Shown here: piece by piece, positions 6,421-43,633 of the stretch
Position numbering within the stretch: the first letter of the stretch is position 1
Layout: each line of letters starts with the position of its first letter
Source: Perkinsus olseni
Lineage: Eukaryota > Perkinsozoa > Perkinsida > Perkinsidae
Reading direction: 5' to 3'
Assembly: GCA_013115135.1 (NCBI GenBank)
Contig: JABANP010000197.1
Coordinates: 26,104-90,103 of the forward strand
Length of the DNA: 64,000 nt
Made by a program: the position numbers and the translations under genes
Notes under the pieces: model-generated
Database searches by the model: none
What the model saw: only the letters and a program-made list of their open reading frames with translations
Told to the model about the DNA's origin: nothing

Positions 6421-8630
6421 ATGCCCTCTAAGCATGCAGTGAGTATAAAGGCTCATTCGTCCACTCCCGAAGGCCACGCTGCTCCGCCCTCGGTGTCCAG
6501 CCACGGCAGCATCCTCGGCAGCCCGGAACTGGGGCCGAAGAAGAGCGATGGTGAAGATGATCATGAGAAGCGAGACTCTCGAGACTCCGTATGGTAGGTT
6601 GGGGTGGTGAGAATGGTTCGGCCGGTGTCCAGTTGGCGTCCCTAACGTATCTTGTTCATAGTGCGCCGACGAAGTTCTTGCCTTTCCGCTTTGTCTCTGG
6701 ACGCGCCTTTTGACGACTTTCTGACTGGTTTGCATGTAGGGCGGTCGGAAGAGAGAAAGATGGAGCTTGTGTTGAAGGACAACGACTCTGAGTTCCGAGA
6801 TCTATGCGACGAGAAGGAGCTCGGGTAGGTGCAGCCGCGTCCTTCTTTACCCGTTTTCGATAGTGGACGTTATAGTGGTTGGCAACGCTTATTAGTATTA
6901 ATATTTATTCCCTATTCCCTATTCCTTACGCATACTTATAAGTTTGTATGAACTTAGCGCGATAGAGGGCCCGACCTTCAGGATCGTAGTATTATAAATT
7001 CAGTATTAGAACGTGCGTTCCAATACGCCGGCTGTTGTCCTGTGTGAAATAGTAATTACTATTAGAATCATCGTAATGGTAATTACTATTCAATCCGCGA
7101 GTATCGAAAAATGTGGTATGAGTAACCAGTGAATAATATGCACTGAGTTTACTTACTATTGTGATTCCTCTATTCTTAGTTGGCAATCGAGAGCAGTGAC
7201 CCTGTTGTGGAACCGGAGGAAGAAGAATTTCGAAGACCAAGCCCTGGATACTCAGAAGGCCACGCGGGTTCGATTCACCCCGGAGGAGAAAAAATATTTC
7301 GAATTCTACAGGTAACTTTCCGGCCATCGTGAACGCCTTTGATGCTGCGTTGTGCTGCAGGGGGCGGTTGCCCCAGATGTGTCCGGAGGTGTTTATGAAG
7401 CTGCCGCTTCGCTCCGCTGCTTCCGACAAGCTCGAGGATGCCCCGAGAAAGATCTTTGTGGATATCGGCTCGGCTCCGGGAGGAATGAGTAGGCAACCTT
7501 CATACCACAAACCTTTGCTGTGCGCGTGGGAATCTTTTGCGATATCGTAGTGCTTTCTGAACATTATAGGTAAATTCTTGCTCACCTCCCTGCACTGGAC
7601 CAAGGGTCATGCTTTCTCATTAGCGCCCGAAGATGGAGGTAAGCGGGGGATTCCGCTACACCGTGACTTTCGGTGCGGGGCTTGCTAGAAATGAAACGAT
7701 TGACGTGGGAATATGTGGAACGGAAGTGTGAAAATATCGCTCGAGTTGAAATCAAATATGTGGAACGGAAGTGACAGTTCATGAAGACTCCTGGGAAATG
7801 GCGTGGTCAACTGCGGGGCACTCAGTGACACTGCACTCATGTCACTTAGCGGCGGTTCTTCCTGCCTTCTCAGCAAGCTCTGAGGAATCTTCTCAGGCCT
7901 TGAGATGAGGTACCACAACCCCTCCCTGGAGTTCGAATGTGCGGATCTAGCCGAGAACGGCGCCTACAAGCGTATCGCCTCGGCACTGGAGAGCCGGGGA
8001 TTCAAGAAGCACTCCCTGGACTTCATCAACTTAGGTATGTCCTCAGTGGTAATGATCCTTCCCGTCGTTGCATTGAGAGTGGTAGGTGTTGTTATTGATG
8101 TGGGCCAGTGCAACAGAGACGACGATCCTTATGTGACTGCGAAGAAGTCGGTGGAGGTGTGCAGGAACCAGTTCCTGCTCATGCTCGATTTCCTCAAACC
8201 CGGCGGCTCCTGTAGGGCGTCGCGCGGTGAAGTCGAAAAAAACATGCCGGGTTTACATCAGGCATGTGGATTCACAGCGGTTCGCATCTGGACACCTACC
8301 TCTTCTATCTCAACTGGCTCAATCGTATGTTCGAGCGCTTGAGGGTCACTAACACGCTGGTAGGGCCGGTCGTTCAACCTGAGGCGTTATGCCGTTTCAC
8401 GCTGCTCAGGTACCGAGCCGGAGCCCTGTGTACACTATTGCTGAAAACTTTATACCCGGTGACAGCGACGCTGCATTAAAAGTAGGAGGCTATCAGCTCG
8501 GCTACGATGCAGCTTTTCTCGTCAGGCATGCGACGATTTCCGCGAGTTCCTGCTAACTCACCCGGCCGATCCCTCAACACCGGAGATATGGCAGGTGAAC
8601 TCGGTTCCCTTGCGGCGCAAGGTGTGCTAA
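6421..8630 (+). CDS. FtsJ-like Rossmann-fold methyltransferase domain protein
   Basis: Predicted SAM-dependent methyltransferase of the FtsJ/RrmJ fold; the substrate is unknown, and family members methylate rRNA, tRNA or mRNA caps. Exons: 6421-6593, 6675-6824, 7180-7311, 7361-7488, 7570-7638, 7897-8034, 8086-8211, 8262-8359, 8410-8481, 8526-8630, all phase-consistent. Motif I is FVDIGSAPGGMSKFLLTSL, matching the D-x-G-x-x-P-G-G SAM loop. Later strands read LEFECADL and LGVVIDVGQCNRDDDPYV, followed by LLMLDFLKPGGSC. The K-D-K-E catalytic tetrad of RrmJ is not obvious: the fourth-strand position has DVGQ, and after GGS the chain goes to MWIHSGSHLDTYL. Activity could therefore differ or be lost. 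A charged, Ser-rich N-terminal region of about 100 residues precedes the fold. The start is the first ATG in frame, and earlier exons cannot be excluded. Confidence 0.8.
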
Positions 8631-13284: not shown

Positions 13285-15304
13285 ATGTCCATGCTGGACT
13301 CGGCGCATCATCAACAGATGTACCAAAGGCAGCTGGTATTGCCGGGGGATGTGATCAATGCTGAGAAGGGCTTCTTGAAGGTAGTAGGAGGGCTGGATGG
13401 ATCGGGCAAGGGGCCCTATGCCTGTGGCTTGGCTAAGCAAGAGTGTAGAATCGACGCAAACACGTGAGGGTGACTGAGGTGATGAACGGGACTTTGCATG
13501 TCGTGAGTCTATCATTAATAACCCACCGTAGCCTCACGGCATCTTAGCTGAGGATTGTATTTTGTGTGAGATGACGCCCTAGAGGGCGGTAGGATGCCGA
13601 GCTCAGATATGTGGGATGTATTGTTCTTATGGCTTGGGTGTTCCTACTCGGATTTTTTGTGCGTGAATTTCGGTCCTGAAAGAATGGTGTCTTGGACGTT
13701 TCAGTGTGTTGTGGTTCGTTCTTCGAGTTGCTGTGATGAGTGTACCTCTGTGATCACTGAGCGGCTCGGTCTCGATACGTCGACGACGGAATGTATTGAA
13801 ATTAGTATCACCAACGCTGGCATGCCGCGGTTTTCCGGGCGGATTGGGGTTCGATGGTGTAGGGTCGCGGCCTTCTAGTTGACCCCGTCGACGGCAAGCT
13901 GGTTGCTACTGTCAGAGGGATCTTAGAGAGAGTCAATAAGCTGCTGTACATACGCCCTTTGAAAGTACTACTGGGGAGAGGGCTCGTCGAGGGCGTCGTG
14001 GAGGGAAGTCTGATCTCAGAGTCGGTATACGGGGGAGGTCGGGGACGTTATCGTCGGACGGGTCGCTGAGGTGGGCGGAGATAGATGGATGCTGGACTAT
14101 GGCGGGTAAGCCGATGGTCTAAGGATCGATCCTGAGGTAGGGCATTTTACGTTCAGAGGAGGATCTTTGGCGTCCTTGCCCATTGGTGGTGTTAACCTTC
14201 CGCAAGGAGAGCAACGTCGTCGGACTGATACCGACCGGATGAACATGCGGGCCATGTTCACTGAAGGGCGACCTCGTCAGCGCTGAAGTAAGACTTGTCA
14301 GCTTTCGAGAGAACTTCGGCGGGCAGGATCGACTGTTTGCGAAGCTACTCTCGATGTTCGGGGCTTTCGCAGCTTCTCCCATGTTATTCGCTGTTACCGT
14401 TGGTTGGAGCTTTCCTCTATACGTTGGGCTGTACATGGTATTTTCATCACGTTCCTTCGCACAGGAGGCGCTGGCTGCCACGCCAATACTACGATTGAGA
14501 TTTTCGACCTTCTCTTCCAGACGTTGAGACCGCTCTTAGCGTCATCGTTATGGGTCTCACCTCTTTTTCACCCTTCAGATTCAGAAAGTGGTATCGGACA
14601 CTGGAGATGTTATTTTGCATACTCGAAGTGCTAAGTACGGCAAACTGTATAATGGCCAGATGGTGCGAGGTAGGAAGGCTGAGCAGCAGCTGCTGAACCA
14701 GTCGAAGGCATGCTTCTCGGTAGTGTCCTCCTCCCTGGTGAGGAAGACAGTCTTCCCATATTGTTGAGAATCTCCCAGCACCCTTCGATCATGTAAGTGG
14801 GACGTTTGCACTGTCTCGTTGTAGGGGTGTAGTAGTAGAGCGCAACATAGGTAGATTGGGCTCATTGGGAACTAGATTGAGCGAGGAGTGGTAGAGACGG
14901 TGGTTGTAACTTACTAATGGTATGAGCTTAGCTCGATTGTGTTGTGTTGACAGCGCACATTGGTGAAAACTTGATGATGCCTCGGCTGCTGTCTTCTTCT
15001 CTGCGTGGACGTGGCAACGCCATCCGTGCTGCTCCTCAGTTACAGCTTGTACTTGGCCTGAACGGTTGGATTTGGGTGGGTATGAGGCCGAAGCAGTCCG
15101 GGCATATTCAGTCTATTAACTTCACACAAACAGAGAAGGGGTCAGCTAGTCATCACCACCATTGATGTCTCAACCGAGTGGTGTTGTTGTAGGTTCCAGG
15201 AGGTTGACCAAGCGTCGAGACAGGCCATATCTCTCCTCTGTGCATGCGTACGTTGGGAGATGCCGTTCCGTGAGCGTGAGATTCTCGAGTATATTAGATC
15301 GTAG
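13285..15304 (+). CDS. RRP4: exosome complex RNA-binding subunit RRP4 (EXOSC2-like)
   Basis: RRP4 caps the RNA exosome and guides RNA into the 3'-5' decay channel in nucleus and cytoplasm, using an N-terminal domain, an S1 domain and a KH domain. Exons: 13285-13380, 13411-13444, 13879-13964, 14020-14105, 14157-14287, 14579-14669, from 14724, then exons ending near 15165 and at 15304. Matching segments, in family order: RQLVLPGDVINAEKGFLK, ATVRGILERVNKLLYIRPLK, SRYTGEVGDVIVGRVAEVGG (S1), GGVNLPQGEQRRRTDTDRM, VILHTRSAKYGKLYNGQMVR, LVLGLNGWIWVG (KH) and a C-terminal helix with REREILEYIRS. One extra base near 14266-14270 breaks the frame between FTEG and DLVSAE. The 30-nt segment 13381-13410 could be an intron or ten extra codons. 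The start could be an upstream ATG. Confidence 0.85.
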
Positions 15305-15723: not shown

Positions 15724-17267
15724 ATGATACTGTCACGCTGCGGCAAACGTTTTATCAGCAGAGGGAGCGATGTTGTTGTTTTCATCAATAGTTTGATACA
15801 AGGGAAGTCGATGATGCCGAGCACTCGAGATTGGCGATAGCATTGGGAGTTATCTCCAAGCAAGGCAACCCCACCACAGGGTGACGGTGTTCTTATTACC
15901 ATAGCTAGCATAACGCTGGTGGAAGCCCACCCCGTGGATAACCATCGATGATGTCAATGAACCATAACGTTCGACTGCCACGGCGATTAAACTGAGTTAC
16001 TCCACCCGTCCGTCACGGACGGTCCGTGCCTGGTGTCGCCCACCAAAGCTCCCCTGATCACCCACCGAAGCTCCGCTGACAGCGGTGAGACCGTCGGCTC
16101 TGTCGCACTCGGTCAACTTCGCCCTGCCCGTGTCATTGTGGGCGAGCGGTGGCAGATCTCGAGCGGAACAGATCTTCCGATCTTATCACAGCTCGAAAAG
16201 AAATTCCGGCTAAGGAACACCTTCGCTAGAAGCTCATCGCCCCCCTTCGCTGTGTGTAATCTCAAATCACGAGTCTTGATTGCGATAGCGCAGCCGCTGT
16301 GCTGCTGCCAGAGCTTGATGATAGGGTTCTCGATCCATCCGTAAGGTAATGCGCCTCGTAACCTCTCTCCTCACTGTGGGTACCTCTGTCGCCATCGGTG
16401 TGAAGTCGGGCATCCGTCGCAGCCCTTCTCCAGTGTCACCCTCCAGCCCGATCCCGGTAGTAGCCTAGGAGTGCTGGTGTGGCGGAGGCTGCACTGGTGC
16501 TGTTCAGGCCCATGCGCGCGAAGTTGGTGGAAATGTCTCCTGGACCTCGACGACTTGGAGGTCGAGCTTTCTGTCAACAAACTGAACCGCGTTGCTACCA
16601 AGTGCACTAGAAAGGGACGTAGGTCGATCGTGTCCTCGCCCCTACTCGGAGCTGTCCACTCTGTTGTTGTAGGGGAGAGTTGGAGGCGAAGATCGACACT
16701 CCATATTATGGGGACAACTCCTACACTTGCCAAGAACTTGCTCAAGCCGTCCACGATGTGACGCTTGCAACGGACGAATCTTACTACCAATCACTCTTTT
16801 GGAAGCATTCGCGACCAGGGAGGAGAAATTGCTACGGACGACTCAGGACAGGATGGCCAATGGTCATGGCCCGCGGATCGAGCCCGCAGCCCAGCGGTAC
16901 GTGAGGCTCTCAGGAGGGCGTTCTGTCAGTGATCGTCCGAATACCACTCTTCCTTCAAATCCCCTTTTTATCACGCTATTACGAGCCTGTCATGCTACAT
17001 GTGTATAAGAGTATGTGGATGTTACCAAGAGCTTATTTCAGTGTTGGTCTTCTGCCAGGGCGTAACGCGCGACTGTGTACTCATCATCTTTCCTGCAGTA
17101 CTGTCACGGAGTGTCTTGGCCATTTCTCGCTCCTATTTGGGCCAAATTTCACTTGCTCTCGGCTCTCCAACAGATTAGAAGAGAGCACTCATTCAAGACG
17201 ACTTCGTTGTGCTCTGCGGAGTTGAGAGTGGAAATCTCGCGAATCAGGACATCAGGATCTTTTCACT
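15724..17267. other. stretch with isolated exon-like segments
   Basis: No complete gene can be built. An ATG at 16349 starts a short hydrophobic, signal-like segment (MRLVTSLLTVGTSVAIGV). Around 16680-16800 there is a Cys-containing segment (DTPYYGDNSYTCQELAQAV). Around 16790-16870 a helical segment (LLEAFATREEKLLRTTQDRM) lies in another frame. These could be exons of one secreted-protein gene just upstream of the tandem family, but they lack that family's landmarks. Confidence 0.3.
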
Positions 17268-17965
17268 ATGCTCGCTCCGGCAGCCTTGGTGTTCGTCGCT
17301 TTGCTGGAGTCGACCCATGCAGCAGCCGGGCCGATTCGAGCCCTCAAAAGCGGAAACGGGCTCGTCGCGCCGCCGCTCGAGGTAAGTGGCGCAGGTGCGC
17401 GTCTTCCCTGTTGAATCGCGTGTCATATCTACCTAGGCAAGTCGCGTCAAGAGAGACTTCGATATCCCACCTCACGGGCGCGGGTAGGTGAGCTGAGAAA
17501 GTGGACCATCTTAGCATTATTCATGCCAGATTGAACGGAAGCTGGTGCTTTGTCAATGGTGAAGTGGCAAACGGTGAAGTGACTCAACTGCGTATTCAAC
17601 AGCTTGGAACCTCTATGGTTATCAACTCCTACGTCGGTGACCCTCCCTCGTACTCCCGGTAAGCACTCTCCGTTCTGTGCGATCCATCGCTCTTGCTACC
17701 CGTTCGGCCAAATACAGCCACATCAGAGACCTGGAGAATAACAGTGTATTCCTTGTTCAGTACTTGGATGCTCTTCGGACACTTCCATCGTGCCCAAGAC
17801 AGTGACTGCCACTCCTACCTCGGCAGTATTCACTCACACTGGTATAGCGAGCACGCTTATTACAGGGTCGCATGTGCTCAAGCTAAGTTGAGAAGAGGAG
17901 CTTTGGCTGATGTTTTTATTGAGGAGCTCGTGAGAAGACACCAACTGGGAATAGAGTATGTCTAG
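17268..17965 (+). CDS. secreted IHSxWY-family protein, copy A
   Basis: First of eight tandem paralogues. Exons 17268-17381, 17437-17486, 17530-17658, 17761-17965 with phases 0, 2, 2, the pattern shared by the cluster. Exon 1 encodes a signal peptide (MLAPAALVFVALLESTHAAA) and ends in PPLE at the splice site. Exon 2 is exactly 50 nt. Exon 3 has the W-C pair (GSWCFVNGEVANGE). Exon 4 carries DCHSYLGSIHSHWYSEH, then a helix ending ADVFIEELVRRH. The predicted mature protein is about 145 residues with two conserved cysteines. No known domain is recognised. A surface or secreted role is inferred only from the signal peptide. Confidence 0.75.
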
Positions 17966-18391
17966 TGGTAAGGTGGAATTACTGAATCTTCGCTCCAGAC
18001 TCTAGAGTTGCTTGGAGTGCATGATTACGGGATGTTCTTGTCCTCACGAAGGAGCTGTCGAGTGCCACGGAAGGGATGGATCGACGCTCGTGCATTGTAA
18101 ATTTACTTCCAGAACTTGGTGGAGCTTTGGTCGAGGCCTCCGTCACTCAGCTCATCATCATTAGGTTATCACCATAACTCGGTCATAGCGAGACAGGAGG
18201 CAGCCTCGTTCCCCGTAAGGCACGGTCGTCCGGAACAGGGTCTTTCGTCCCTTCGAAAACCCTCCGACTTGCCCGTATCGTAGACGCAGGCAGCATGCCC
18301 CGCTTGTTCCTCCCCATCACTGTTTTAGAAACTACTGATGATTAGTAGGGGACATCAAGCTCTCCGCAGTTGCATTACATTTCAGCTTTCC

Positions 18392-19128
18392 ATGATGTTC
18401 ATTCCCGCTGCTCTCACCTATCTCGCTCTGCTGAAGACCGTTTGCGTCGAAGGCCGCTCGAACGGCCCCGCCCCCTCTCTTCGCAGTAGTAGTCCGGAGA
18501 GTAAGACGCTCCCTGAGCTGGAGGTGAGCATCGATGGCGGTGTGCACCAGGGCCATGCTCTTACTTGCAGGATGAGACCATTGGAAACGAAGTTCCACCG
18601 ACCCTTACTCGGTTTTTTGGGAGGTGAGTGAGTGGAGATTCCTACTGCTGCTGCTACTGCTGCTGCGGTTTGTTCCGATCCATTCTCTCAGGAACGTCCA
18701 TGGTCGGTGGTGTTCCATCAAGGGCAACGTGGGCGGCGAAAACGCCGGGGTCTACTTGAAGCACCATGACGCTGGTAACACGCTCTTCAACTTGTACACA
18801 GGCGACCCGCCCGCACTCGATGAGTAAGCCTCGTGTTCGCTGTATGCCTCCCTGAGGTGTCGCTGTCTGTGTCATTTTCAGTCAGGGAATTCTCCCAGAG
18901 GGGGCTTTCCCTCATGCCTACGATGACAACTGCCGTGCGTACTACGCCAACATACACTCCGACTGGTACGAGAAAGACCAGAAGTACCGGGCCGCAGTTG
19001 ACGGTGCAGCGGCTGACGGGGCGTCCATCACCAATGTTTTTATTCAAACGTTCTTCGAGAAGTACAGATCGCGGATGGATGCTCAGAACCGCGTCATGCG
19101 GAACGCAAGATGGATAGAAACCCTCTGA
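18392..19128 (+). CDS. secreted IHSxWY-family protein, copy B
   Basis: Complete copy. Exons 18392-18523, 18571-18623, 18692-18823, 18882-19128, phases 0, 2, 2. The signal peptide begins MMFIPAALTYLALLKTV, and exon 1 ends in ELE. Exon 3 reads GRWCSIKGNVGGENAGVYL, then NLYTGDPP. Exon 4 has YDDNCRAYYANIHSDWYEKD, then AAVDGAAADGASITNVFIQ. The C-terminal tail is about 20 residues longer than in other copies. Spacing to copy A is about 430 bp with no other gene between. An ATG pair (18392, 18395) makes the exact initiator ambiguous by one residue. Confidence 0.8.
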
Positions 19129-19295
19129 TTTGTGATCGACTCGCTCCGATCGTTTGTTGGCATGTTGTACTGTCCGAGGTGTATCCGTCGGGGTCACTCA
19201 AGTGACGAGTTCCAATCAAAGAAGAGAGCCAAGAGTAACGCTGGGCCGAAGCGGCATTTTCGAGCAGCGGTCTTATCACTCTGATATCTGCGACG

Positions 19296-20399
19296 ATGCT
19301 CGTTAAAGTCGCCTCCGTCTTTTTCGTCTGCTTGGGGTCCGCTCTGGCCCGCCTGACGCGGACCGCGGCGCTTCGAGTCGACGGGAGCCTACGAGTCCCT
19401 CCCCTCGAGGTAGGATTTCGCCTCCAGGGGACTGCCCGAGATCGAAGTTTGATTCGGCGACTTGGAGTTGCACTCAGGCGAGCAGAATCAAGCTAGGCAT
19501 TCCTGCTCATCTCGTGGAGAATGCAGGGTGAGGGAGGAGTGGGCCCACGCCAGAGGTACCGTTATCAGCATTTCAGGGAGGACGCTGTGGAGGGGTGCTT
19601 GGTGAAGGGCAAGATCGACGGGAGGGACTCGACGATGTACATGCGCGTGAACGAAGATGGTGACACGGTCGTCCATTATTACAATGGCGACACTTCCTGT
19701 CTTAAGAAGTGAGTGTGAATTGGTGAAGTCTTGCCGGACCGCAGGGCACGGATGCTGCTCTCTGCAGTTAGACGTTTCCCTCCTCGCACTGATTTCCGGT
19801 GTGGTCTAGGATGTTAGGTTTGCTTAAGTGTAGAAGTGGATCAACGCAACTTTACCGCACTCACACCGGCGCCTCGATTCTGAGTGTCTTTTCTCACTTG
19901 TTTCCCCCTCGCTCAGCATAGAGGCCAAGATACCTTGGCCCCTACGCTGAGCGATACATTTCGGTTATTATGATCGAGTATCACGATTCGATGTAGATTT
20001 TTTATGCGATCTAGGTGTTCCACTTAGAGTATCAAATCTCCTCGCGAATGAAGATGCATCGATGCTAGTCTGAGCGTTAGGCTTGGAACTTCCCGACACA
20101 GCCGGCGGCCTTTGTACTGCGAAACCTAGCGAATATTCCCTGTACGATGTATGAAGCACGCTGCGATCGCTTCCCCCATCCAACTTGACGATGGCGTTTT
20201 GATCAGGGTCAGAATGATGCCTGGGGAAGTCCCCACTGCTAACTACGACGACGGTTGTGAAGCGTTTGTGGGTGAGATACACTCGGGATGGTACAGTATG
20301 AGCAAGAAATACAAAGCTGCTGTTGATCAAGCAGCGGCTCGAGGAGCGCCGATCGCCGATGCCTTCGTCCAGAGTGTGCTCGACTTGGCTATGTGCTAG
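19296..20399 (+). CDS. secreted IHSxWY-family protein, copy C (long last intron)
   Basis: Exons 19296-19409, 19478-19527, 19577-19708, 20207-20399, with the family phases 0, 2, 2. The signal peptide is MLVKVASVFFVCLGSALARL, and exon 1 ends in VPPLE. Exon 3 has EGCLVKGKIDGRDSTMYMRV (Gly replaces the usual Trp before Cys), then VVHYYNGD. Exon 4 has YDDGCEAFVGEIHSGWYSMS and KAAVDQAAARGAPIADAF. The third intron is about 500 nt, several times longer than in its neighbours, which suggests an insertion. Confidence 0.75.
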
Positions 20400-20937
20400 G
20401 GACTGTGAGGACGAGGAAAGCGGAGGTTCCGCTTTGTCTCGCGATGCTGTTGTCATGCTGTTGTGTGTGGATGTACTTGAAGATCTATGCTGGGAGTTGA
20501 GTTCTAATAATAGGATATTCAGATACACAGACCTGGTTGAAAATACAGCGCGCTGCATCGCTTTCATGATTTGGCTCTTCGAGGATACTCAGGGGGTTCT
20601 CCTGCATCCTCGCCTCAGCGGGCGAGTCGGGAAAAAACATTTGCTGCCCTCGTCGCCTTGAGTCATCCTACTCGATCTCCATGAGTATGAATATTGATTC
20701 TCGGCTGCCTTGCGTAGGTGGCGTCAATACTCGTCAGTGGTGGTGGCTGAGTCTGCGCCAGCGTGCCTACGGGGCAACACCGGCGCCCTCTCGCTAACCT
20801 TGTGTTCATTGCACACTGAAGATGGTCGTACGGCTTGAGCACATGACTTCATTCCTCCCCATGGAGCGATGTCTCCTCCCTGCGAAGCGGGACCGCATAC
20901 TCACGGTCAGTTTTTCTCACAGTAGCACGTACTGTAT

Positions 20938-21637
20938 ATGGTGATGATGTTCCCTCCTGCTCTCTGGGTGTTCATTGCTCTGTTGGAGATAGGTGGCGTG
21001 GATGCCCGTTTGGCCTCGGCAGGAGCTTCCCTTGGGCAGACGCACCCGCAACTGGAAGTAGAAGCCCGCAATGATTCGCCGTGTTCCGGAGTGTCCCTTC
21101 GAATTTTCTCAGAGAGGTCGAATCGGCCAGGATATCTCTCCGGACCTTCGAGGCACTGGGAGGTGAGCAGGGGATCCTTGCGCTGTGTGAAGGGTGAGAG
21201 ATACCAGTTCAGGCGTGATCCAGAAGACTGGTGCTCCATCAAGGGCAAGGTTCGAGGCGAAAATTTCGAGTTCTTCTTTCTACCCGATCACGGAGATATT
21301 GGTAACCTGGGTCGGGAACCGACGAGCGGTCCAGCAGTTCGCGTCATGTCTAGGTATCACGGCATTCCACTTCTACCGAGGCAACCCCCTTAAGTGGGCC
21401 TGGTACGTTCTCTCTTTTATGTTACAGCGGCTCTTGTGATCCGTTTGGAGTGGTATCGCTCTGCTTCAGGCTCATGTTTACCACGGCAACTGTCACAACT
21501 ACTTCAACGATATACACTCAGCGTGGTACACTAAATACCCGACCTACAGAGCCGACGTTGATAGAGCGTCGGCTAGCGGGACTTCGATTGTTGATGTCTT
21601 CGTTCGAGAGATTAGTAGGAGGTACACAGCCAATTGA
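20938..21637 (+). CDS. secreted IHSxWY-family protein, copy D
   Basis: Exons 20938-21057, 21113-21162, 21213-21301, 21354 to about 21393, 21451-21637. The signal peptide is MVMMFPPALWVFIALLEIGG, and exon 1 ends in QLE. Exon 3 is split by an extra intron after GDIG, as in copy E: the first half has DWCSIKGKVRGENFEFFFL and the second ITAFHFYRGNP. Exon 4 carries GNCHNYFNDIHSAWYTKY and RADVDRASASGTSIVDVF. The acceptor chosen for exon 4 (after TTTGGAG) is the one that keeps phase. A stronger-looking CAG nearby would break the frame. Confidence 0.72.
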
Positions 21638-21815
21638 AGCACTTTCACGTGCGTGCTGCAGTAGTTGTCATGAGCATGGTTTGCTATGGTGTAAAGATGT
21701 GCTTATCTGTCCATAGCATGAGTCGAGCTTGGATACGCGAAGATCTTCGTTTCTGGCGAGGACAGTTGATTCCGGGGCCCCTGTTGGCATACATTTCACC
21801 ACTTCAGTCACTCTG

Positions 21816-22573
21816 ATGTCTCTGGTGTCCGTTGTCTTGGCCTATCTCGCACTACTGCGGACCGTTGTCGTTCAAGCCCGTTCGAGTAAAAAGGGCCCGC
21901 ATGAGTTGTTCGGTATAACGTGGAGAGAGGCTCCCCTCCCCAGCTGAAGGTGGGCAACTGCGCGTGCTTGTAGTGATTTCATAAGACACTTTCTGGATCA
22001 TCAGTCAAAGAAAAACTGCATGAGGGATCCTCCAGACTTTAGAGTAAGGAGGAGGAGGAGGTGAGGTTGGGAGGGTTGCTGCTGTCGGTGTTGAAATCCG
22101 AGATTTCAGAGGTGCGGCCGAGTGGTGCTCTTTCAAGGAGACAATTGATGGAGAGAAGTTCAAGGTTTTCATTCTCCCACCTACCGCGCAGAGTAGCTCA
22201 GCAGTTTTCTAGCGATTGAGGATTCCGTTTGTCTTGTAGATGGTCTGATTTTCCGCTTTTACAGAGGCAAAGCGGCCACGTTCGCATGGTAAGTGAGGTG
22301 GATCATGATGGATCAGGTATGGTGGATCATGTGTTTTTCAGGGAGGCACGGCAGCAGGAGTGGGAGTCGATTCACCCATACGAAGGAGACTGTCGGCTAT
22401 TCCTACAAAAGCTGCACTTGTCTTGGTACGTAGGACGCCGAAGCTATGAAAGGGCAGTGGACAGTGCAGTGGCTACTGGTGTGTCAGTCTCTGATATTTT
22501 TATGAGGGAATTGATCAATACATTCAATGCGACACATGATGAAGTCGCACGTCGGGTCCCTCACCATGACTGA
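21816..22573 (+). CDS. secreted IHSxWY-family protein, copy E (first-exon frame break)
   Basis: Exon 1 starts MSLVSVVLAYLALLRTVVV, a signal peptide, but its frame hits TGA at the CAGCTGAAG splice end, where other copies read PPLE or PQLE. One base in the preceding C-run would restore the family frame, so this is either an error or a decayed copy. Later exons are intact: EWCSFKETIDGEKFKVFIL near 22108-22192, GLIFRFYRGK near 22240-22288, and 22342-22573 with GDCRLFLQKLHLSWYVGR and RAVDSAVATGVSVSDIF. Exon 3 is split as in copy D. Confidence 0.6.
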
Positions 22574-23156
22574 TGTGATAGCCACCTTGTTCAGGAGTCG
22601 AGTTCGGGTCAACAACGGGTCCTCATGATCGAGTGATGGTGGTGCCTTCGTGGGCGTGAGTTGGCCGGTGTATGTGAGTTTATGGTCCAACGCCGGATCC
22701 ACCTCATTCAGACTCTTGCCGATGTCCTCAACTAGAGAATCTCTGTAGCGTGGGCATCCAAGCGTTCGAGCATCCAAACGATAGCTATCCAGCTTCACTA
22801 GCTTCAGATAGCTATTCGACTGATAAAATCCGGCGAGGGAATTATCCTCACCCATCCTCCCCCTATACTATAGGGCCTATAGGTGGCTCTTTCTGAAGTT
22901 TGTTATAACCGTGCAATTTGCATGATGATTCATACAGGTTTGCGCAGGCGTGTGCGTCCACTCATGCTAGTAGTCGGCTTTGAAACACAGACCGAATCAG
23001 AGTTGGTGGTACGGCTGAGCTGTAACGGCTCATTGCTTTCCGTACCGCAATGAAGGAAGTTGAATGAACTCGCACCTACTTCGCCCATACTTCAATATGA
23101 GGCATACAGTATGAGACTTGATAGAAGTGTCCTCCACTTCAGCAGGAACCCTGATT

Positions 23157-24186
23157 ATGCTCCTTCCGACTTTCTTTGCTTTATTCGTCTCATTGGAGCA
23201 TAGCCGCGGTGCGACTAGCTTACCTCGACTCGCGCCAATCGCCACCAAGGAGGCTCTGAGTGTACCACCTCTCGAGGTCAGTCGTCCACTGGGTATGGCA
23301 CAACAGTATCACAACATCGCCACTGTGTCAGGCCAACAGAATACGTCAGGAAACTCCGGCTCATCTCGTTCAGAACTTCGGGAGGTAAGGGGCAGAGCAG
23401 AACCACGGTCTGGGTGTTTAGGCTCGGCACATAGTCTATCTATTTATCAGTATACATTATTCAAGGTCTTATCGTTGGGTGATACCCATGTATTGGTGAG
23501 ATCTAATTTACGTTATTTCATCTCGTTCTCAATATTACTATCCAGACGCTGTTATACCTATTTATATGATTTGATATCTATTTCAGTGACGCAGCGAAAC
23601 AGTGGTGCTTGATCGAGGGCAAGGTTGGCGGTGTGCCCTACAGAGTGTACCTGCGTCATAGCGAGCAGGGAGGCACGGCCATCAACTTCTACAGAGGTGA
23701 CTTTTACTACCCTCAGAAGTGAGTCTGATTGGTCACTGAGAGTATCGTCTCGCAAAGCCGCTTCCTCGCTCCACGGACTTGGCGCTCCAGCCTTCTGCAA
23801 TATTCCTGTCGTAATCGGCCACAGGCCGTGGCCGATTACTGGCCGTCCCCGTCACACAATAGATGATACAGTGGACCGCCCACAGGCAGATGTATTTGCG
23901 TTCTCCTTCCAGGATAGAATCCTTCTCTGTGTTTGTTTTTTCTCATCTCTCACTGCACTTGTTATCTGGTGCCTTACTGCTCAGGATGAGGATGCTCGCT
24001 GGATCTCTATTCCCTCGTTATCCAAACCACAACTGTACCACATACATGAATAGAATACACGCCGACTGGTATAGTAAAGGTGGAGCATACAGAGCTGCAG
24101 TCGATGACGCCTCTGCCCAGAAGAAATTGATCGGCGATGTGTTCTTCCACGAGCTGTTCGAGTGGCGTGACGCTCACACTGACTGA
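23157..24186 (+). CDS. secreted IHSxWY-family protein, copy F
   Basis: Complete copy. Exons 23157-23276, 23332-23384, 23587-23718, 23985-24186, phases 0, 2, 2. The signal peptide is MLLPTFFALFVSLEHSRGAT, and exon 1 ends in VPPLE. Exon 2 is 53 nt (17 codons plus 2). Exon 3 reads KQWCLIEGKVGGVPYRVYL, then INFYRGDFYYPQK. Exon 4 has NHNCTTYMNRIHADWYSKG and RAAVDDASAQKKLIGDVFF. A 12-bp hairpin (GTAATCGGCCAC with its complement) lies in the third intron at about 23812-23840. Confidence 0.78.
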
Positions 24187-24365
24187 ATCGTGTTGGGGGC
24201 GAAGCTGGCCTTTTTGATGATGAGCATGTCTAGATGTGGTCTGTGGATGTCATTACTGATTGATCGTGACTGCCGAGTTACAATTCCAGCAGGACATTGT
24301 GAGGCCATAGAAGTATTTGGGTCGTCTTCTGCCGTTTTAAATGGTGCAATCATCCCAGAAGCTGT

Positions 24366-24411
24366 CTTTGTGAATACGAGCAGAAATTCTGCTCGTATTC
24401 TCAAAGACAGC
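24366..24411. repeat. long near-perfect inverted repeat (hairpin)
   Basis: Arms of about 20 bp, starting TGAATACGAGCAG and ending CTGCTCGTATTC with extensions CTTTG/CAAAG, surround a short AAATT loop. A second smaller hairpin follows at once (CGTAAGAGCTGCAAGCTCTTACG). Both sit downstream of copy F, outside any exon. They could be a 3' processing signal, a foldback transposon remnant or a transcription stop. Confidence 0.6.
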
Positions 24412-25425
24412 AAGCTGCAAGAGCGTAAGAGCTGCAAGCTCTTACGGACGAGGAGTTAGCCGAACAAACTAACACGGCCACAGGAGGGTTTCTCGGGTGA
24501 AGGGGTACAAATCCGCAGGGTTGAAGCGAGACGGTCAGTGAGGAGACTTTGGGTCTATCATGTCAGAGTCCTCTGGAGGGTCGACCCGTACCGCCCGACA
24601 AGCTCGTTATGTTTGTTGAGAGGTTAACGCGTTTGGCTTCCTCGTTTATGGCAAATGCGGAACTCCGCCGCGGCTGTCGATTGATTCTTACCTCAACGGG
24701 CTCTCAACTACCACCCCATCTTAGGATCACCGAAATTTTCAGGAAAACAAGAGTTGAAGGTTCGTCAGCGCCCATTTCCCCAGGGGGTTCGCTGAACCAG
24801 AGGATTTGATTATTTTCTGACGATTAGGCTTGGCAATGTTCCCAAGAGAAAGGTCGCTCGTTCAGTGCAGCTCTCCTTATTGGACAATGCTCTTCTCTAG
24901 CCTTCCCTGGTCTGCTGCTTCTGATAGTGTGTTGCGACCTCATCGAGTTCACCTCGGCCATTGGAAAGGAGCCAACAGACTGTCCTAGAAGCCTCTGACA
25001 AGCCACAGATTCCACCACTACAGGTGAATTGCAGTCCTAATGCATGCAGAGACGAGAATTTGTTCAATAAGAAATTTTACTCGCAGCATCACTCTGTGCT
25101 CGAGGTCAGCCCTTAGAGAAAGCGCCTTCAATCATCGCCATGAAGTTGGTAAATCTCCAACCCACCGTTCACCTACCCGCTTGAGCTCAGCTGCTAGCGC
25201 CCAAAGCTGAGCACTTACCGCTTCTTTCTCACATGCAGCGATTGGCATCGCCGCTGGTGATCGAATGGCCCCTCTGTGAACAGTCCGGGAGGGACTTCAT
25301 AGTCTTTGTGATGCTCCTAGATGATTTGGTTCTACTGCCGACCGGATAATCCGGCGTCATTTGCGTCAGTGGAGAAACAATGGTTCCCTCTCTGGGACCC
25401 TCGAATGTCCTCTTCTGCTGATCAG

Positions 25426-25890
25426 GCTGGAAGGGATAGGCTTCAAAGAGGCCGAACCATTTACCGCGGCAAGCTCATGCTGGATCGAAACTCGACATTT
25501 GATAGCCGCTTTCCTGCACTCGAACGGGCCCACGGTCGCCTCACTCCAGTACAGGGATCCCCAGGCTGGCATAAAGTGAGATTGGTCATCTCTTCCAGAA
25601 CTCATGTACGGTCCTTTTGTTCGTGAGTAGATGAGACTCATTTCAGACGTAAGGTGATAGACACGAGCGATGCTGCTGAATACAGAAAGAAGGGAGACGA
25701 GTCGTGTGAAGACTTTCTTGACAGGATTCACGGAAAATGGTATCAGGAATCCTCGGAATCCTATGCAAAAGAAGTTGATGAGATGGCGAGGACTGGAGGC
25801 TCGGTGAACCGTCAGTTCGTGAAGCAATTCGTTCAGGAATTCGCGCCTGAGTATTGGAATAGGTTGGCCAATGAAAATGACATGTTGTGA
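25426..25890 (+). CDS. secreted IHSxWY-family protein, copy G (only 3' exons found)
   Basis: Exons 25426-25575 and 25647-25890 match family exons 3 and 4 with the right phases. Exon 3 is divergent: SCWIETRHLIAAFLHSNG, ending at AA|GTGAGA. Exon 4 has DESCEDFLDRIHGKWYQES, then KEVDEMARTGGSVNRQF and a longer C-terminal tail. I could not place exons 1 and 2. A hydrophobic segment near 24890-24960 (LAFPGLLLLIV) looks like a signal peptide but has no in-frame ATG. This is the most divergent copy and may be a pseudogene. Confidence 0.5.
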
Positions 25891-25980
25891 GCCTGGCGAG
25901 TGGATGTGTGATGTTCGAACGGAATTCTGTTGCGTTCTTGCGGGTGCGTAAGATTCCTGATCGGCAGGAGCTCATTCGCT

Positions 25981-26638
25981 ATGTTTTCGTTGACGGCCTT
26001 GCCTCTCATCGTTCTGCTGAGTTTTCACTACGCCGAGGCTCGTCTCAGCCCGAGGCGGGTCTCCTCGTAGTCGCGGTAACTTCAAGCTCGAGGTAACCGT
26101 TGATATTCAGCAACGACAATAGACGGATCTTTCAGCGTGATAGAGTGAAGAGAGAGAGCCCTCCACTCCTTGAGAATCCCGACAGGTGAGGGGTGATCGA
26201 GCCACGCTGTAGGCGTTGGCACTTGGTATCTCAGAGACCGAACCCAGCGCTGGTGCTCGATTGAAGGGAAGGTTCGTCACGAGCCCCGCAAGGCCTATTT
26301 TCGACCGAATGAGGATGATGGGACGATCATTAACATGTATGCAGGACGGCTGCTTCTGCTGCAGAAGTGAGTCTTTGGATAGCGGTCCCATGGTATCAGA
26401 TGACTGTATTTGGCTCAGAGTGAGATCCTTGCGTAAGAGCGACTTTCCTCACCCTCACTACGATGATTGCTACACGTACCTCGAGAACATACACTCTACG
26501 TGGTATTCCCAGGACCAAGAGTACAAGGAAGCAGTTCGTGATGCTGCGGCCAGTGAAGGGCTGATCGCCGACGTTTTTCTTGAAGAAGTTTTTAGAAGAT
26601 ACAGAACGCCGGCAAGTCGGCTGCCTTTGTTGTTATGA
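25981..26638 (+). CDS. secreted IHSxWY-family protein, copy H (first-exon break)
   Basis: Exon 1 starts MFSLTALPLIVLLSFHYAEA, a signal peptide, then runs into TAG, whereas the expected KLE splice end lies in another frame at about 26093. Exons 26136-26185 (50 nt), 26235-26366 and 26419-26638 are intact with phases 2, 2. Exon 3 has QRWCSIEGKVRHEPRKAYF, and exon 4 has DDCYTYLENIHSTWYSQD and EAVRDAAASEGLIADVF. It is the last recognisable copy; no member is seen downstream. Confidence 0.6.
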
Positions 26639-43125: not shown

Positions 43126-43296
43126 AGAGCCCTCGCGTGCTGGATGGTGTCAACATGACCAAATGGTCCCTTCCGTGAGAATTCGTTATCGTGCTGCGTT
43201 GAGCGTTGAAAACGGATGCCGAAGGAGTATGGTTCAATCACATGATGATTTGTGACTTACACGATACCGCCCAGTCCAGGACGGAACCTCCAACGT

Positions 43297-43369
43297 GGGG
43301 GACTAGCTCAAATGGTAGAGCGCTCGCTTAGCAAGCGAGAGGCACCGGGATCGATGCCCGGGTTCTCCA
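43297..43369 (+). tRNA. tRNA-Ala (AGC)
   Basis: The 73-nt sequence folds as a cloverleaf: acceptor GGGGGAC with GTTCTCC (two G-U pairs), D-arm TAGCTCAAATGGTAGAGC, anticodon arm CTCGC-TTAGCAA-GCGAG with anticodon AGC, T-arm CCGGG-ATCGATG-CCCGG, discriminator A. CCA is not encoded. The internal A and B boxes are intact. Confidence 0.95.
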
Positions 43370-43560
43370 TTTTGATACAAAATTCTGCCATCGAGTGGTG
43401 AACGTCTACTTTGCAAAGCTGTTTCCTTCGTCGCCAAATAGCCTCTTCCGTGAGAATCCGTTATTGTTCTGGACCGAACGTAGATACTGAACGCCGTAGC
43501 ATGATTCAATCGCAGAGCATAACAAGAGCGGTTCACGCCTCAAAGATAAACATCTAACGA

Positions 43561-43633
43561 GGGGGACTAGCTCAAATGGTAGAGCGCTCGCTTAGCAAGC
43601 GAGAGGCACCGGGATCGATGCCCGGGTTCTCCA
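43561..43633 (+). tRNA. tRNA-Ala (AGC), second copy
   Basis: Identical over all 73 nt to the copy at 43297-43369. The upstream flanks are also related but diverged (both carry a CTTCCGTGAGAAT segment and a related GATTCAATC / GGTTCAATC segment), so the pair arose by tandem duplication of a unit of about 264 bp. Confidence 0.95.

Follow-up and report, generated by a model that had tools for sequence, protein, structure and literature searches.

The eight-copy array and its gene models

We analysed 64,000 nucleotides of Perkinsus olseni DNA (GenBank assembly GCA_013115135.1, contig JABANP010000197.1; hereafter the window), which form part of contig C109 in the genome that we searched (61.5 Mb, 968 contigs). 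On the forward strand, positions 17268-26638 hold eight head-to-tail copies of a gene for a small, likely secreted protein, named c1-c8 in order and spanning 9.4 kb from the start codon of c1 to the stop codon of c8. The tandem copies share exon phases and two invariant cysteines, their nonsynonymous divergence (dN) is on average lower than their synonymous divergence (dS), broken copies stand beside intact ones, and relatives occur elsewhere in the genome. An earlier reading of the window (the original prediction) had pointed to an alveolate origin, in agreement with the placement of P. olseni in the alveolate phylum Perkinsozoa.

Four of the eight copies are clearly intact and contain four exons each: c1 (17268-17965; exons 17268-17381, 17437-17483, 17530-17658 and 17761-17965; 164 amino acids (aa)), c2 (18392-19128; exons 18392-18523, 18571-18623, 18692-18823 and 18882-19128; 187 aa), c3 (19296-20399; exons 19296-19409, 19478-19527, 19577-19708 and 20207-20399; 162 aa), and c6 (23157-24186; exons 23157-23276, 23332-23384, 23587-23718 and 23985-24186; 168 aa). 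All 12 of their introns are bounded by GT-AG, and the intron phases are 0/2/2 in each. The tiny second exon measures 47, 53, 50, and 53 nt in c1, c2, c3, and c6, respectively, a range of 47-53 nt in place of the 50-53 nt first proposed. The predicted motifs survive in modified form: the phase-0 end of the signal exon, given as (PP)LE, reads (P)xLE; the exon 3 tryptophan-cysteine pair is WC in some copies and GC in others; and the exon 4 motif, given as C-x5-8-IHSxWY, is C-x6-IH-x2-WY, with LH in c5.

The remaining copies depart from the four-exon layout. Both c4 and c5 carry an extra phase-1 intron at a similar place inside exon 3, and because this intron is common to these two neighbours they are likely sister copies. 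The five exons of c4 (20938-21637; exons 20938-21057, 21113-21162, 21213-21301, 21354-21406 and 21470-21637) encode 159 aa if a weak last donor is used: with the strong donor GTACGT (21403) exon 4 loses the reading frame, and only a weak GTTCTC four bases later keeps the copy open, so that its intactness is doubtful. In c5 (21816-22573), exon 4 (22342-22573) and both parts of exon 3 (22110-22192 and 22240-22288) are open and family-like, exon 1 is broken by stops, and the phase is also lost around exon 2. Exon 1 of c8 (25981-26638) likewise contains stops and is frame-broken (25981-26092), with exons 2 (26136-26185), 3 (26235-26366), and 4 (26419-26638) open. For c7 (25447-25890) we recognised a weak exon 3 by eye (~25447-25575) and an exon 4 (~25647-25890), and saw by eye no in-frame ATG signal exon upstream, where exon 1 would likely lie at ~24880-25024. 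The breaks in c5, c7, and c8 may reflect true pseudogenes or assembly errors; base-level noise is possible in this region, because the gene upstream of the array also differs in frame from its counterpart in isolate FOZ62. Near-perfect inverted repeats lie between c6 and c7 (24361-24411, 25-nt arms) and in the long third intron of c3 (19909-19954, 21-nt arms).

To assess kinship among the copies, a profile built from seven copies was searched against the six-frame open reading frames (ORFs) of the window, leaving out each copy in turn. Exon 4 was recovered for all eight copies at expectation values (E) of 1.9e-23 to 4.2e-10, the latter for c7, and the best unrelated ORF scored 1.2 or worse. 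Exon 3 was recovered for six of the eight at E <= 0.0033; c1 scored 0.025 vs 0.059 for the best unrelated ORF, and c7 was missed. These recoveries bear out both the count of eight head-to-tail copies in 9.4 kb and their descent by tandem duplication.

The splice models agree in content with three outside annotations, which are themselves gene predictions rather than RNA evidence: c1 is identical to P0002 (FOZ63, partial) across 120 residues of exons 2-4, c2 matches P0001 (FOZ61, complete) at 163 of 186 residues (87.6%), and c3 matches P0005 (FOZ63, partial) at 97 of 98 residues over exons 1-3. Together with the array, six hypothetical proteins (FOZ61_007293, FOZ63_011245, FOZ61_004490, FOZ63_019516, FOZ63_015412, and FOZ62_027430) make up what we call group A. 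The family's database entries are annotated singly and bear no family name; three are flagged as partial, and in two (P0004 and P0006) a neighbouring gene precedes the family copy. Such counterparts bear on whether the array could be a decaying relic in which the majority of copies are dying and the others are functionless. Although no open exon 1 was found in three of the eight copies and a fourth is doubtful, four are clearly intact, dN is below dS, open counterparts exist in other isolates (P0001 complete, P0002 and P0005 partial), and the breaks may be assembly errors; we regard this account as very improbable.

Relatives outside the array

All 14 genome matches to c2 fell on C109. With joined exon 4 pieces, eight of ten matches fell on C109 and one each on C158 and C208 (E 0.007), and a second such search returned eight matches, all on C109. 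The C158 and C208 hits lie on the reverse strand and define group B (C158:8774-9343 for the C158 copy), which has a signal exon followed by an exon with a cysteine and then C-x6-LH-x2-FY. P0007 and P0008 cover the full length of the 149-aa group B model, and P0007 agrees with the C158 copy in 145 of 149 residues; the database relatives of this group are FOZ62_031355 and FOZ61_008562. Searching with the group B model revealed group C (C158:18599-19055). The first exon of this gene closes with IPPLE at phase 0, and its 130-aa model is identical at every residue to FOZ60_005887. The original prediction of a local cluster thus holds for the array itself and has to be widened to relatives beyond it.

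Groups B and C share with group A a similar signal exon with its phase-0 junction, a pair of cysteines, and the core C-x7-H-x3-Y, and five residues (C, C, H, Y, and Y) are invariant in nine aligned sequences of the three groups. An exon 4 profile made from group A only was run against ORFs from the window and a further 96 kb; the group B copies scored E 2.3e-5 and 2.8e-5, group C scored 0.0092, and the next ORF outside the window scored 7.6. The phase-2 intron between the strand part and the helix part is kept in B and missing in C, and the argument for membership of C draws partly on the end of its signal exon and the phase of its junction. In a tree of the copies, branching within group A is not resolved and the split of A from B and C is fully supported, with long branches. 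No further copies were found in 70 kb of C158 and C208 or in the 26 kb of C109 upstream of the window, where the remaining matches scored E 3.4 or worse; the search with the group B model also gave a weak candidate on C41 (E 5.5). A genome-wide DNA signature of PPLE plus a donor, CCNCTCGAGGTRAGT, gave one match vs two in the reversed control and was dropped.

The alignment of C158 with C208 extends beyond 20 kb, and 12 of its 14 rows stand at 89-96%, one of them inverted; the two contigs therefore resemble a pair of haplotypes or homeologues. Both carry gene B, and gene C lies in a stretch of C158 (~18241-20223) that is missing from C208, where a 43-base island remains between two missing stretches. 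The 3 kb downstream flank of the array occurs once in the assembly, and the 3 kb upstream flank has in common with other contigs only a dispersed repeat. This repeat (window 14803-14961, ~150 bases) has at least 50 further matches, spaced 735-993 bases apart in several contigs, and meets no Rfam family at gathering score.

Selection, predicted fold, and probable role

We compared the 54 shared exon 4 codons of the eight copies in all 28 pairs, a whole-domain average that can hide single sites. The proportion of nonsynonymous differences (pN) was below that of synonymous differences (pS) in every pair, and dS was beyond the formula in 16 pairs and 0.94-3.59 in the other 12. The duplications are therefore old, and on average the proteins are under constraint. 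Between the two haplotype-like group B copies, dN was 0.031 vs a dS of 0.206. Rapid divergence of the copies had been predicted; the comparison supports neither that nor rapid adaptive change. The copies are nevertheless not slow genes, given the differences between isolates: c2 differs from P0001 as noted above, and c1 is identical to P0006 of another P. olseni isolate at only 69 of 95 residues (72.6%). Copy c3 matches P0003 at 70 of 103 residues (32% different), although P0003 may be a paralogue. The window shows no difference from residues 1-86 of P0004, the part that corresponds to a methyltransferase-like gene (at 7905).

The copies are likely secreted, as judged from their N-termini: a crude hydropathy rule found signal-like N-termini in six of the eight copies, and of the 35 window ORFs that pass it 29 lie outside the family. 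As the original prediction had it, no recognised domain is present. In Pfam, c2 meets no family, and nine members of groups A, B, and C together give four weak matches (best E 0.089), none above the curated cut-off. AlphaFold models of A and B place strands first, as a beta-meander, followed by three helices, and in both a phase-2 intron separates the part rich in strands from the part rich in helices; in A it immediately precedes the last strand. The DVF motif, which had been expected to end the helix, lies close to where the last helix of the model begins. Searched against the PDB, the models gave no significant match.

The best structural row for the model was KhtT (7agv), with 70 residues aligned between positions 44 and 137 of 186, and p32, PUR/Whirly, and staphostatin folds were also present among the rows. 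These rows give some substance to the idea that a middling model hides a known inhibitor or binding fold, be it a staphostatin-type cysteine protease inhibitor, a PUR/Whirly-like four-strand-plus-helix unit, or p32/C1QBP; with no row reaching significance, we consider this improbable. At the profile level, dynein light chain accounted for five of the seven PDB rows of a five-copy exon 3 profile (E 0.27-0.31; the other two were YjgC, E 0.20-0.21) and was absent from the rows of a nine-sequence profile that included B and C; we dropped it as a candidate exon 3 relative. An insert of MavC, at E 0.29 with the nine-sequence profile, was set aside as noise.

The explanation that we tentatively prefer, with a confidence that falls a little below even, is an old P. 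olseni family of secreted proteins, shaped by purifying selection and by gain and loss of copies, with a beta-meander/three-helix domain that may bind a host molecule. The signal exon would send the protein to the endoplasmic reticulum, and a linker ending in PPLE would separate the signal from the working domain, which is predicted to consist of a four-strand beta-meander, encoded by exon 3 and the beginning of exon 4, and three helices, encoded by exon 4, with one predicted disulfide locking strand 1 to helix 1 (C69-C123 of c2). Outside the parasite cell, the domain would bind a partner, most likely a molecule of the clam host, and the family would be kept by purifying selection while copies come and go (birth-and-death). 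The host-facing role is plausible as the single most likely guess and no more, with a role at the parasite's own surface or wall close behind.

The latter possibility, that the secreted proteins act for the parasite itself, in its wall, sporangium, or extracellular matrix or in its life in sea water, seems to us somewhat unlikely and deserves serious weight. It fits the old duplications and the average purifying selection with no sign of the diversifying kind, whereas the presence/absence of gene C and the 72.6-87.6% identity between isolates (c1 and c2) exceed what we would expect of a wall component, which is a weak argument. A bolder form of the host-binding explanation, which we hold to be unlikely, sees a Perkinsus-specific superfamily whose fold (beta-meander, three helices, one disulfide) is absent from the PDB and whose groups A, B, and C have diverged almost beyond recognition, with the signal-exon junction and five residues fixed, and which is deployed against the bivalve host.

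Several points weigh against the explanation that we prefer. No sign of diversifying selection appeared in the 28 exon 4 pairs, and host-facing arrays often show such selection. The hydropathy rule leaves c2 out of the 35 ORFs that it passes, and c7 lacks an ATG. Both AlphaFold models are middling (predicted local distance difference test, pLDDT, 68; predicted template modelling score, pTM, 0.63 and 0.64), and the helices of the group B model are not independent, because its alignment held five group A exon 4 rows. The case for linking group C by itself to the family, at E 0.0092 with the A-only profile, is modest. Finally, the apparent restriction of the family to P. olseni, which is favoured by the nine database relatives found by profile or single-sequence search (all P. 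olseni hypothetical proteins), depends on a search needing shared 5-residue words and on a database that may lack the P. marinus and P. chesapeaki proteomes.

Neighbouring genes and comparison with known systems

Directly upstream of c1 lies a single-copy, likely secreted gene (16349-17009, forward strand) that corresponds to the first part of FOZ62_027430, an annotation that fuses it with c1; the frame of the window departs from the FOZ62 protein early in this gene. Its C-x6-VH motif made it a candidate ninth member, which we rejected because it is not among the matches up to E 10 of the A+B+C exon 4 profile. The methyltransferase-like gene (7905-8594, forward strand; recognised by eye) forms one protein with a c3-like copy in FOZ63 (P0004), which hints at either another array layout in that isolate or a misannotation. 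Further downstream, two tRNA-Ala (AGC) genes (43296-43370 and 43561-43633) lie in an 88-nt direct repeat of 97% identity.

P. olseni is described as a threat to farmed clams (PMC7649815). By their titles and the starts of their abstracts, none of the publications among the matches listed describes a secreted gene family in this species. The gene structure, five fixed residues, and predicted fold that define the present family make up a marker set that can be tested with RNA data.

Tandem, lineage-specific families of secreted proteins exist in apicomplexan parasites, for example Theileria SVSP and Plasmodium PIR. The P. olseni array resembles these, by description, in having its copies in tandem and in unequal state, a likely signal peptide, and an apparent restriction to one lineage; it differs from them in that four of its eight copies are clearly intact and its synonymous sites are mostly saturated. 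Lineage-restricted tandem secreted families are a known kind, of which the P. olseni genes form a new family, unnamed in the databases searched. By its example, fast evolution would not be a necessary trait of a lineage-specific tandem array.
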